Shown here: positions 32,256 to 36,934 of the stretch, piece after piece
Position numbering within the stretch: position 1 is the stretch's first letter
Layout of the letters: each line of letters begins with the position of its first letter
DNA from: Halobacteriovoraceae bacterium
GTDB lineage: Bacteria; Bdellovibrionota; Bacteriovoracia; Bacteriovoracales; Bacteriovoracaceae
Direction of reading: 5' to 3'
NCBI GenBank assembly: GCA_002712005.1
Contig: PASP01000016.1
Span: forward strand, 124,001-188,000
Length of the DNA: 64,000 nt
Translations under genes and position numbers: made by a program
The notes under the pieces: model-generated
Databases searched by the model: none
Seen by the model: the letters and a program-made list of their open reading frames with translations, nothing else
Told to the model about the DNA's origin: nothing

Positions 32256-32993
32256 ATGGATATTATCAAAGAGCCTCATTCAAATTATTTAAGTCATGGC
32301 CATTATGACTTCTCTTTTAGCAAGGCTCTGATTTGGCCAATATTTTGTCTTCTTATTAGTTGGTATTACTGGAGCCCTTACTCTGAAAATTTTAGAGTCA
32401 CTCATGATTTGATTTTCAATCAAAAAGAAATTTGGAGACTCCCTCTAGGGTTCTTTGTTCATGGGGATTTAAATCACTTCCTATCTAATTCTTTATTTCT
32501 AACCATATTAGGCTATTTTATAGGGAGAACCTATGGCAATAAAATCGTCTTTATTGGAGGATTTGTTATTGCTTTAGGCACACATGCTTTAACTCTACTT
32601 TTTATGAAAGACAATATTAGCTTGGTTGGCGCCTCTGGACTTCTCTATGGGTTTTGGGGTCTTTGGTTTTCTCTCTATTTCTTAATCGATCGCTATATTT
32701 CTAAAACAAGACGTTTAATGAAGATTGTGGCCATAAGTTTACTTCTTCTTGTGCCCCATAAATTTGAACCTAATGTGAGTTACCTAGCTCATGGAATTGG
32801 ATTTTTTCTAGGAGCTGGATTAGGAATAATAATATTTCTTTCAAAGAGAAGGCTTTTTCAGTCTTATGAAAAGTTTCGCTATTCCATAGACCCTCCCTAC
32901 AATCCTGCGTTTGAGGCATTAGGAAAAGACTTCTGGAAAAAAGAAAATATTGACCAAGAAAGCTTAGAAGATGAGAACGCTAAGCTTTCCTAA
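32256..32993 (+). CDS. Rhomboid-family intramembrane serine protease
   Basis: A 245-aa membrane protein with about six helices. The catalytic Ser lies in NISLVGASGLLYGFWG (GxSG) and the His in SYLAHGIGFFLGAGLG; the HGDLNHFLSNSLF segment is the conserved rhomboid helix-2 motif. It cleaves membrane proteins within the bilayer. Upstream is TTGACA at 32219-32224 with a poor -10. The 3' end overlaps a short minus-strand reading frame by 14 nt. Confidence 0.85.
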   Translation: MDIIKEPHSNYLSHGHYDFSFSKALIWPIFCLLISWYYWSPYSENFRVTHDLIFNQKEIWRLPLGFFVHGDLNHFLSNSLFLTILGYFIGRTYGNKIVFIGGFVIALGTHALTLLFMKDNISLVGASGLLYGFWGLWFSLYFLIDRYISKTRRLMKIVAISLLLLVPHKFEPNVSYLAHGIGFFLGAGLGIIIFLSKRRLFQSYEKFRYSIDPPYNPAFEALGKDFWKKENIDQESLEDENAKLS

Positions 32994-33144
32994 CCATGAT
33001 TCTTGAATTGTAATCGAATCGAGAACGAAAGATACTAAAAGGTACCGATTTAACATGAGTAAGCTTTGCAGACTCAATAATAGCATCTGCAGAGAGAGAG
33101 GCGTATATACCCGCAACTTCTCTTCCATTATAAACAAAATTCAA
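32980..33144 (-). CDS. Short ORF coupled to the GNAT/C39 peptidase gene
   Basis: A 54-aa frame begins with TTG at 33144, overlapping the TGA of the upstream gene (33143-33141), and ends TAG at 32982-32980. The product starts MNFVYNGREVAGIYASLSAD and ends RIMVRKA; it is soluble, with balanced composition and a basic C-terminus. No earlier start is possible because an in-frame TAG lies two codons before the TTG. It fills the gap between the peptidase gene and the rhomboid gene. It could be a small partner or a substrate peptide of the ligase system next door; this is inference. It may also be chance. Confidence 0.45.
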   Translation of the reverse strand: MNFVYNGREVAGIYASLSADAIIESAKLTHVKSVPFSIFRSRFDYNSRIMVRKA

Positions 33145-34235
33145 TCTCTATAAAGGGCTACAATTGACTTTAATTGTCGTGAGCCAAATTTGGCCATGAG
33201 CTCAAATTCATCCCGCCTAACCGGTACATTGAAATTATCCACAACCGATTGACCAGCATCAATTTCGGGGTCATGAAAGTAGATAAAGTCACCCTCCATT
33301 GCCGTTAAGACAATCCAATGGGGAGCTTTAGTTTCTGTCAAACGATAGGCACTGATAAGAAGGACAGGGATTCCTCCATGAGCAAAAATTTCTCTAATGG
33401 TATCCCAATCATACTCATCTTTAAAAACCTTGATTTTTTCTTTCTTAATTTTATTTTCAAAATCTTTTTGGACGAGCTCAATAATTTCTTTCTTATGTTT
33501 TGATCTCACCCCTTCAATAAATAAGGGAGCTGAAGAGTTTAAATAAAGCTCTACTTCAAATCCTCTTTTATGAGCGGCTAATGCCAACCCATGAGGTCCA
33601 CAACCCCCATGACCACTTGTCATAAAAATAGTCGTCGCTTCTCGCCAAATTTCTATTTCATGTTCTCGATTGAATTTGGTTTTCTTGCTTAGTGCTTTCA
33701 TTGCCATAAGAAGTGAAGAAGGCCCACAAGTAAACTCTGTGGTCTGCTGATAATGGGGGACCTTCGGACCCTTTATGACTTTGCCCGACAAATTGCGAAT
33801 TTTCTTTTCGTAACATTGAGCATCTTCATGATCTTCATAATAGTCTTTTTTTAGGGCGAACTTTCTATAGCCACAAGATTCATACAATTGAATAGCCGAA
33901 CGATTAGAACTCTTCACTTCTAAACGAAGATAAGTACTCCCCCTATCTTTGGCCATTTTTTCTAACTTTAGTAGGAGCTTCTTACCTAGTCCCTTGCCGC
34001 GAAGTTTTTGATCCACAGCGAGAGAATAGAGCCTAGATAAGGCCGTTCCTCGGTGAAAGAGAATCACTCCATAACCTGAGATTTCCCCCTCTAACTCTTG
34101 AACGAGGATCTCCCCGTGGGATAAGTCAATGAAATACTTGAAGTTTCTATCAGTTAGCTGGTCGCTATCAAAAGAGCTATTTTCTAAAGAAACAAGCTTA
34201 GGAATGTCTGATATTTTTGCTGGTCTATACTTCAT
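33141..34235 (-). CDS. GNAT acetyltransferase fused to a C39-like cysteine peptidase
   Basis: A 364-aa two-domain protein. Residues 1-150 are a GNAT domain (RPAKISDIPKLVSLE, acetyl-CoA loop QKLRGKGLGKKLLLKL, LEVKSSNRSAIQLYESCGY). Residues ~160-364 are a papain/C39-like domain: VPHYQQTTEFTCGPSSLLMA holds the Cys, APHWIVLTAMEGDFIYFHDP the His and Asp. This fusion is known beside RimK-like ATP-grasp ligases with an N-terminal RLAN domain, as it is here (divergent, 104 nt). A role in making or processing a modified peptide is the accepted guess. GAGAG precedes the ATG. Confidence 0.82.
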   Translation of the reverse strand: MKYRPAKISDIPKLVSLENSSFDSDQLTDRNFKYFIDLSHGEILVQELEGEISGYGVILFHRGTALSRLYSLAVDQKLRGKGLGKKLLLKLEKMAKDRGSTYLRLEVKSSNRSAIQLYESCGYRKFALKKDYYEDHEDAQCYEKKIRNLSGKVIKGPKVPHYQQTTEFTCGPSSLLMAMKALSKKTKFNREHEIEIWREATTIFMTSGHGGCGPHGLALAAHKRGFEVELYLNSSAPLFIEGVRSKHKKEIIELVQKDFENKIKKEKIKVFKDEYDWDTIREIFAHGGIPVLLISAYRLTETKAPHWIVLTAMEGDFIYFHDPEIDAGQSVVDNFNVPVRRDEFELMAKFGSRQLKSIVALYRD

Positions 34236-34338: not shown

Positions 34339-35823
34339 ATGAAAGACTTTATTGTTCTGGTAGACCAAATCAAAGACTGGCAAGTATACCATCCATCGGA
34401 GCATATTATTGCGGCAAAGAACTATCTCTTTGATACCAGATTTGGTAACGAAAATAATCGAATCACTCGTGTACTCAATCTATGTAAGAGTTATAAGTAT
34501 CTCTCTGATGGATACTACTGTTCACTACTTGCTGAAGCTAGAGGTCATCGAGTCATTCCTTCTATTAAAACTTTAAACGACTTAAGCAAGAAAAGACTCT
34601 ACCTCTATGACTTAGATGATTTACAAGAGGTGGCAGAACAAGCAGCGAACAAGTTCACTCAAAATGCAAGTGGTCTCAAATCTATTGCCTTTAGAACATA
34701 TTTTGGACATGCCAAAGACCCTCTCTTTAAAGGGTTATCTCGCCATATCTTTGACCAATTCCCCTGCCCAATCTTAGAGGTACGCCTCACTCAAAAAAAG
34801 ATTTGGAGAATTGAATCAGTAGTCCCTGTTCCCTTTACCGATCTCAATGAGGCGGAAGAAGAGCTCTTTGGAAAATCTCTTGAAAAGTATTCAACAAGAA
34901 TTTGGAGACTTCCAGGACCAAAGAAGAATTACCAATTTGATCTAGCCATCTTAGTTAACCCAGAAGAAGAACTTCCTCCTTCAGATGAAATGGCCTTAAA
35001 AAAGTTTGAAAGAGTATGTGCAGAAGAAGGCATTTACAGTGAAAGATTGGGAAGAAAAGATATCACCAAGCTGAATGAGTTTGATGGTCTCTTTATTAGA
35101 GAAACAACAACAATTAAAAACCATACCTATGCATTTAGCCACAGAGCATTTCAAGAAGGTCTGGTCGTTATTGACGATCCCAATAGTATTTTAAAATGTA
35201 CCAACAAAGTCTTTATGTATAACTTAATGGAAAAGCACGGTATTTCTCAGCTTCCCTCTGTATTCGTATCAGATCACTCAGAAGATACCTTACAAATGTT
35301 AGAAGATAAATTTTCCTACCCTCTTGTGCTGAAAATCCCTGATGGAAGCTTTAGTATTGGGGTAAAGAAGGCGAAAGATCGGGAAGAGCTTAAACTTCTA
35401 CTGGCAGACTTTTTAAAGAAGTCCGCCCTTGTTCTCATTCAAAAGTTTCTCCCAACAGACTTTGATTGGAGAATTGGAGTTCTAGAGGGCCAAGCACTCT
35501 ATGCTTGTAAGTACTATATGAGTCGAGGCCACTGGCAAATTTATGATCACGGCAAGTCTGGAGATGATGTCTCTGGAGATAGTGATACTTTAGAATTAAG
35601 CGATGTTCCTAAAAATATTCTGGATACCGCGGTAAAGGTCTCCTCTCTAGTCGGGACGGGACTCTATGGCGTCGATATAAAAGTTATCGACGATATACCT
35701 ATGGTAGTTGAAGTAAATGATAATCCCAGTATTGACTCCGGTGTAGAGGATCTCATCTTAGGTGATGAGCTCTACAGAAAAATAGCGCGAGCATTCCTCA
35801 ACAAACAAAAGGAAGGACGTTAA
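34339..35823 (+). CDS. RimK-like ATP-grasp ligase with N-terminal RLAN domain
   Basis: A 494-aa protein. Residues 1-~200 form the RLAN domain (FIVLVDQIKDWQVYHPSEHI, RITRVLNLCKSYKYLSDGYY). Residues ~205-490 are an ATP-grasp amidoligase with LVLKIPDGSFSIGVKKA, LVLIQKFLPTDFDWRIGVLE, LYGVDIKVIDD and the metal-binding VVEVNDNPSIDSG. Such enzymes form amide bonds between a carboxylate and an amine using ATP, for example adding glutamate to a peptide. GGAAG lies before the ATG. The next gene follows by 1 nt. Confidence 0.87.
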   Translation: MKDFIVLVDQIKDWQVYHPSEHIIAAKNYLFDTRFGNENNRITRVLNLCKSYKYLSDGYYCSLLAEARGHRVIPSIKTLNDLSKKRLYLYDLDDLQEVAEQAANKFTQNASGLKSIAFRTYFGHAKDPLFKGLSRHIFDQFPCPILEVRLTQKKIWRIESVVPVPFTDLNEAEEELFGKSLEKYSTRIWRLPGPKKNYQFDLAILVNPEEELPPSDEMALKKFERVCAEEGIYSERLGRKDITKLNEFDGLFIRETTTIKNHTYAFSHRAFQEGLVVIDDPNSILKCTNKVFMYNLMEKHGISQLPSVFVSDHSEDTLQMLEDKFSYPLVLKIPDGSFSIGVKKAKDREELKLLLADFLKKSALVLIQKFLPTDFDWRIGVLEGQALYACKYYMSRGHWQIYDHGKSGDDVSGDSDTLELSDVPKNILDTAVKVSSLVGTGLYGVDIKVIDDIPMVVEVNDNPSIDSGVEDLILGDELYRKIARAFLNKQKEGR

Positions 35824-35824
35824 T

Positions 35825-36934
35825 ATGAATGCGGGAAAATTGGTCATTTACCGAATCTATGACCTTGCCCATGAAGTCAACTTTGCTGAAGCTTCAGGAA
35901 AATTAAATAAACTTGGACCAACATCTAAGTATACGCTTAAGAGACCCTCTAAAGACTTTCTCTATGGAGATCCTCCTCTGGTCCTCAGCCAAGGAGATGT
36001 ACTTTTTGAGGGAACCAAAGCTCAAATGATTACTAAAATATGGAGCTATGGAGCCGTCTCCTTTTCATTAAGTATAGACTGTGAAGCCTACAGTGAAAAC
36101 GATGAAGACAGAACCAAGCTTATCCAATGGTTTAGCTTTTGGTGTGAAAGTGAGGCTATCGACCATTTCTTAAAAACGAAAATTCAAGAGCTCTTATCTC
36201 TCTTGGGAAATAGTCTTAAGAAACCTGAAGTTTGGAATCAAGAGGAAGACTATAATATATTCTTGGCCAATCCTGATTACAAACCAAAGGATTTTTGGGA
36301 AAAGGATAACTTTGTCTATCAATTCTTAAGTAAAGAAGAAAATATCCCTTTAAGTGAAGCGATGATCTCTCCTATCAAAGAAAGTAGTCTCTCTTATGGG
36401 CCTAACGATCTTGTTGTTATTGACTGGGATAGTGCATTTGTTCTCGCCAGAACAGACTCAGAAGATATCTGCGATGTCATCGAGTTGGCGAATGTTCAAT
36501 TATTAGAGCTTCGCTATTTTGATGATCTACTCGATAAGAAACTATCTGGCCTATATCGCCAAGTTGTCGAAAAGAGACCTTCTATTTTCAATAGTACGAT
36601 TGCCTTACTTGCACGAGATGCTAGTCAACTCTACTTGGAAACAAGTGAGGTCGTCGAGAGGATTGAGAACTCACTAAAAGTTGTAGGTGATATTTACTTT
36701 GCACGGCTTTACCGCTTAAGTCTTAAGAGGCTTCAAGTCCCTCAATGGCAAGCAACAGTCGATCAAAAGCTCAAAAATTTACAAGACGTTTCTCAAATGT
36801 ATATGGGTGAACTCCATACAAGACGTGGCCATTTCATGGAGATTATTATCATTGTTCTCATTGCCATTGAGGTCGTACCTTTCCTCTACCCAATTGTAAT
36901 GAAATACTTAGAATTGGCCTTAAGCCATCTTTAG
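35825..36934 (+). CDS. RMD1/YagE (DUF155)-like membrane protein
   Basis: A 369-aa protein. The C-terminal part (RLSLKRLQVPQWQATVDQKL, MYMGELHTRRGHFMEIIIIV) and the final membrane helix (~340-362) match the RMD1/DUF155 family, whose mitochondrial members are membrane bound and linked to translation. The N-terminal half is soluble. It follows the ATP-grasp gene by 1 nt and is surely co-transcribed, so it may anchor or assist that system. Its 3' end overlaps the convergent gdx gene by 15 nt. Confidence 0.72.
   Translation: MNAGKLVIYRIYDLAHEVNFAEASGKLNKLGPTSKYTLKRPSKDFLYGDPPLVLSQGDVLFEGTKAQMITKIWSYGAVSFSLSIDCEAYSENDEDRTKLIQWFSFWCESEAIDHFLKTKIQELLSLLGNSLKKPEVWNQEEDYNIFLANPDYKPKDFWEKDNFVYQFLSKEENIPLSEAMISPIKESSLSYGPNDLVVIDWDSAFVLARTDSEDICDVIELANVQLLELRYFDDLLDKKLSGLYRQVVEKRPSIFNSTIALLARDASQLYLETSEVVERIENSLKVVGDIYFARLYRLSLKRLQVPQWQATVDQKLKNLQDVSQMYMGELHTRRGHFMEIIIIVLIAIEVVPFLYPIVMKYLELALSHL

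Follow-up and report, generated by a model that had tools for sequence, protein, structure and literature searches.

Is a short open frame that lies directly behind a peptidase gene, in a locus that also carries an ATP-grasp ligase, a hidden gene, and does its product belong to these enzymes? The question is raised by a Halobacteriovoraceae bacterium, in a window of 64,000 nucleotides (the whole stretch of DNA that was analysed). The original prediction had proposed a gene for a peptide modified or cut by the neighboring enzymes, or for a small partner. The features of the locus are collected in Table 1. On the minus strand, positions 33144 to 32980 form an open frame of 54 codons reading TTG ... 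GCT TAG. Its TTG (33144-33142) and the TGA of the peptidase gene (33143-33141) share the motif TTGA in different reading frames, and an in-frame TAG is found two codons 5' of the TTG. The gap of 147 bases that separates the peptidase stop from the rhomboid stop is entirely spanned by this frame, whose 3' end overlaps the convergent rhomboid gene by 14 bases. The overlapping start, the preceding stop and the filled gap had all been read correctly from the sequence; the overlapping frame of 57 codons had not been reported. No clear Shine-Dalgarno motif or other ribosome-binding site could be seen by eye for the 54-codon frame. The gene and codon reference was drawn from the window and 20 other stretches of its genome, 464,000 bases in all; 386 long frames were defined there as genes, and TTG is the first start codon in 52 of them.

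Table 1. Features of the peptidase locus, in positions of the window
Feature	Position	Strand	Remarks
Rhomboid-family protease	32256..32993	+	PF01694; convergent with the peptidase gene; 14-base overlap with the 54-codon frame
Overlapping 57-codon frame	32964..33137	-	Same gap and strand as the 54-codon frame, other reading frame; chance-like score
54-codon frame	32980..33144	-	TTG start overlapping the peptidase stop; coding-like score; no relative found
GNAT acetyltransferase and C39-like peptidase	33141..34235	-	PF00583, PF11814 (DUF3335)
ATP-grasp ligase with RLAN domain	34339..35823	+	PF14401, PF08443; divergent from the peptidase gene
369-aa protein	35825..36934	+	No Pfam or NCBIfam match; C-terminal hydrophobic segment

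The openness of the 54-codon frame is weak evidence, since openness was the criterion by which the frame was chosen. It survives in 1.8% of the dinucleotide shuffles of its own sequence, 5.6% of them leave one or more of the three same-strand frames open, and a chance of 2.3% follows from how often stops occur in the noncoding DNA of this genome. Codon statistics are largely independent of this selection. With a hexamer model trained on sequence outside the window, the frame obtains a score of 0.2225, which places it at the 44th percentile among 259 stretches of the window's own genes and exceeds that of every one of the 515 chance frames (45-75 codons) located inside other genes. The corresponding probability is 0.004-0.0055 in noncoding DNA simulated under three Markov nulls, and 0.0035 against dinucleotide shuffles of the frame itself; among 50 intergenic frames of similar size it ranks fifth. 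By synonymous codon choice alone, the check for bias suggested along with the prediction, the frame ranks at the 76-79th percentile when set against real genes and outscores 98.6-99.8% of the chance frames. The codon usage of the host, a property expected of a coding gene, is therefore present. The signal is unevenly distributed, with hexamer scores of 0.29, 0.36 and -0.04 for the successive thirds, the last of which is devoid of coding signal. The rival frame of 57 codons has the coding score of a chance frame.

Conservation was examined beside the peptidase gene. This protein is found at E <= 1e-60 in 36 of the 129 family genomes (own genome excluded), and the DNA behind it was compared for 31 of these 36 loci, G117, G120, G121, G142 and G143 being left out; in four of the 31 this stretch is short (356-1006 bases). 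The tblastn comparison beside the peptidase in relatives, which the original prediction had itself put forward as the means of refuting it, finds the frame absent from 31 of 31 peptidase-bearing loci, with a best E value of 0.27. Four species of the same genus, whose peptidases are 79-81% identical, are included; the peptidase is kept in four of the six other genomes of the genus. A wider search gave the same picture. The peptide has no match besides itself in its own genome and no convincing match in 59 genomes (16 other genomes have a match at E 0.256-0.981). The 129 family genomes gave two weak matches, at E 0.033 and 0.073, and the 368 genomes of the phylum three, at E 0.013-0.041; none of them is convincing. 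The weak genome matches of E 0.013-0.073, some of them interrupted by stop codons, were judged to be due to chance, as were two plasmid matches (tblastn, E 0.2) within an Enterococcus DUF916/DUF3324 protein. Pattern scans of GTDB contigs and IMG/VR and a tblastn search of phages yielded no relative, and the peptide matches no known family in Pfam, NCBIfam, PHROGs, PADLOC or PDB sequences. A comparably short frame of the same genome, encoding 64 amino acids, was recovered in all seven genus genomes, own included. A failing search alone thus does not explain the absence of the peptide, which counts against an old functional gene. Another control frame matched five of seven genomes, own included; it proved to belong to a longer frame truncated where its stretch ended, and was not counted as a small-gene control. 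The claim of a hidden gene is divided: codon usage supports that the frame may be coding, whereas the coupled role of substrate or partner finds no support in 31 loci devoid of the peptide.

The constant neighbor of the peptidase is of another kind. The RLAN ligase adjoins it in 30 of the 31 loci, the exception being L009, and this ligase, not the 54-codon frame, is the conserved partner of the peptidase. With 0 of 31 loci, the frame is not a conserved component of the DUF3335/RLAN neighborhood. The same pair of genes was also observed in Methylomicrobium and in another gammaproteobacterium (L102, L103), where the two genes lie on the same strand and are not divergent. In the window and in G005 (70%), the protein of 369 amino acids follows the RLAN ligase; in G018 (57%) it follows the peptidase. 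Among the relatives examined, two carry it next to the pair (L043, 12491-13585; L045, 9645-10706), and its tail presumably resembles that of RMD1/DUF155 proteins. Amidoligase neighborhoods in which GNAT and papain-like (DUF3335) proteins stand beside RimK-like ATP-grasp ligases were reportedly described by Iyer et al. in 2009. In the window, the peptidase and the RLAN ligase form such a pair, whereas the 54-codon frame lies outside the conserved gene set. An excerpt of a review describes DUF3335 as frequently fused to GNAT domains (PMC10318531), and the fused architecture is, by that excerpt, already known. According to a passage of another article, the RimK ATP-grasp ligase attaches glutamates to a protein of the ribosome, from which the RimB protease takes them off (PMC12239564). 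By analogy, RimK/RimB offers a possible model for a ligase-peptidase pair working without a dedicated short peptide.

On the other side of the peptidase, the genes behind it vary among the relatives of the genus. An ATP-grasp gene occupies this position in G005 and G006 (PF02222, tested for G006), a short frame followed by a convergent gene for a beta-lactamase-like protein (by eye) in G002, and a convergent gene for a trypsin-like protein (by eye) in G003. The best relatives of the rhomboid protein in four peptidase-keeping genomes of the genus are found on other contigs or, in G002, at a distance of 137 kb. The rhomboid gene being located elsewhere in these four genomes, the junction that contains the 54-codon frame is particular to the organism's own genome among those examined. 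Genes for a second ATP-grasp protein and a deoxyhypusine synthase-like protein were noticed in L043 (7718-8683 and 8721-9875) and L041 (7706-8776 and 11447-12415). A deoxyhypusine synthase-like gene is near the peptidase in both G005 and G006 (PF01916, E 8.3e-41 in G005), and comparison with the window and with 20 further stretches of its genome found neither of the two genes. In G060 (L078), a frame of 89 codons directly follows the peptidase with a four-base stop overlap, ATGA; its product appears GIY-YIG-like by eye and does not match the 54 residues.

Several origins were considered for the 54-codon frame. As a remnant of the second ATP-grasp gene of G005 and G006, it gives shuffle P values of 0.35 and 0.54 with the whole proteins and of 0.81 and 0.23 with their first 70 residues, and this origin was rejected. 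Among 311 frames compared as possible parents, the best was that of a methyltransferase situated close to the G006 rhomboid gene. In a search using a profile built from the query and 30 family homologues (31 sequences), the peptide ranks 398th of 645 scored sequences (1001 given); because of this rank, and of the separate copy of the methyltransferase elsewhere in the organism's own genome, this parentage was rejected as well. No parent gene was found in that genome, among the 311 frames compared or by the profile search. A frameshifted C-terminal extension of the peptidase was dismissed, the peptidases of the genus relatives stopping at about the same point. An RNA element or a terminator in place of a gene was also rejected: the spacer contains no terminator-like site, the single match of an Rfam scan lies outside the spacer and far below the cut-off, and the folding z-scores are -0.88 on the minus strand and -1.87 on the plus strand. 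The structure of the peptide predicted from its single sequence is of low confidence (mean pLDDT 58.5, pTM 0.21) and carries little weight either way.

The reading that best accommodates these data, with a probability of about 55%, takes the frame for coding-like DNA restricted to its lineage, in a convergent spacer produced by rearrangement: it would be a small gene of recent origin and particular to the species, or what is left of a gene that has been lost. A rearrangement would have brought the rhomboid gene tail-to-tail with the peptidase gene and thereby created the spacer in which the frame resides. If the frame is translated, the TTGA overlap suggests that a ribosome terminating the peptidase at the TGA could restart at the overlapping TTG by stop-start coupling. 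The principal rival is an open frame due to chance, lying in a noncoding convergent spacer and translated to no purpose. The figures for openness speak for it, about 2% of shuffles keeping the frame open and 5.6% at least one same-strand frame; so are the 57-codon frame, plainly chance-like and open in the same gap, the lack of a convincing relative in any collection searched, and the silent last third of the frame. What chance accounts for poorly is the gene-like codon and hexamer usage: none of the 515 chance frames equals it, and simulated noncoding frames do so in 0.4-0.55% of cases. Since this excess is of the order of 1 in 200 and the frame was singled out of a window of 64 kb, a chance origin keeps about one chance in three.

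The proposal that had drawn attention to the locus, which made the product of the frame a substrate, a leader-bearing precursor or a small partner of two enzymes, GNAT/C39 peptidase and ATP-grasp ligase, fares far worse and appears very improbable. Its strength is the position of the frame directly behind the peptidase gene, stop and start overlapping, together with the gene-like codon usage. Against it, the peptide is encoded in 0 of 31 peptidase loci, the four same-genus species included, compared with 30 of 31 for the ligase; the peptidase/ATP-grasp system does not include the frame among its conserved parts. The enzyme itself does not fit the leader-type peptidase that had been assumed. 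C39 bacteriocin-type peptidases (PF03412) are associated with leaders ending in a double-glycine type motif. The domain present here is PF11814 (DUF3335), matched with 277 bits, and PF03412, the leader-cutting C39 family, is absent among the Pfam matches of the protein up to E = 1. The translation of the frame, read by eye, contains two Asp, two Glu, no Cys and no Gly-Gly. A variant in which a species-specific short protein, produced through the TTGA coupling, was recently recruited by the peptidase and RLAN ligase as their substrate or regulator, with unrelated peptides taking this role in other species, is just as hard to credit.

Precursors of RiPPs and graspetides resemble the 54-codon frame in being short and in lying beside genes for an ATP-grasp enzyme and a peptidase. 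Graspetide precursors possess a conserved leader and an acidic or hydroxyl-bearing core that recurs in relatives. The 54-codon frame differs from such precursors in that it is not conserved with the enzymes and displays neither Gly-Gly nor an acidic core: it has only the four acidic residues mentioned above and no relatives by which a core could be defined. The ligase of the window, in contrast to those systems, matches the RLAN and RimK families. A likeness also exists with the ORFans and lineage-restricted small frames of bacteria, which are likewise short, gene-like in codon usage and without detectable relatives; unlike them, the present frame is known from its sequence alone and is carried by one genome only.

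If translated, the frame would add another orphan small protein to those of a Bacteriovoracaceae-type bacterium and would be of use mainly as a test case for how new genes appear where a rearrangement has joined sequences. More weight belongs to the negative result, as it strikes out the proposed substrate of the GNAT/DUF3335 peptidase and RLAN ligase. The unit worth studying is the conserved peptidase/RLAN ligase pair itself.
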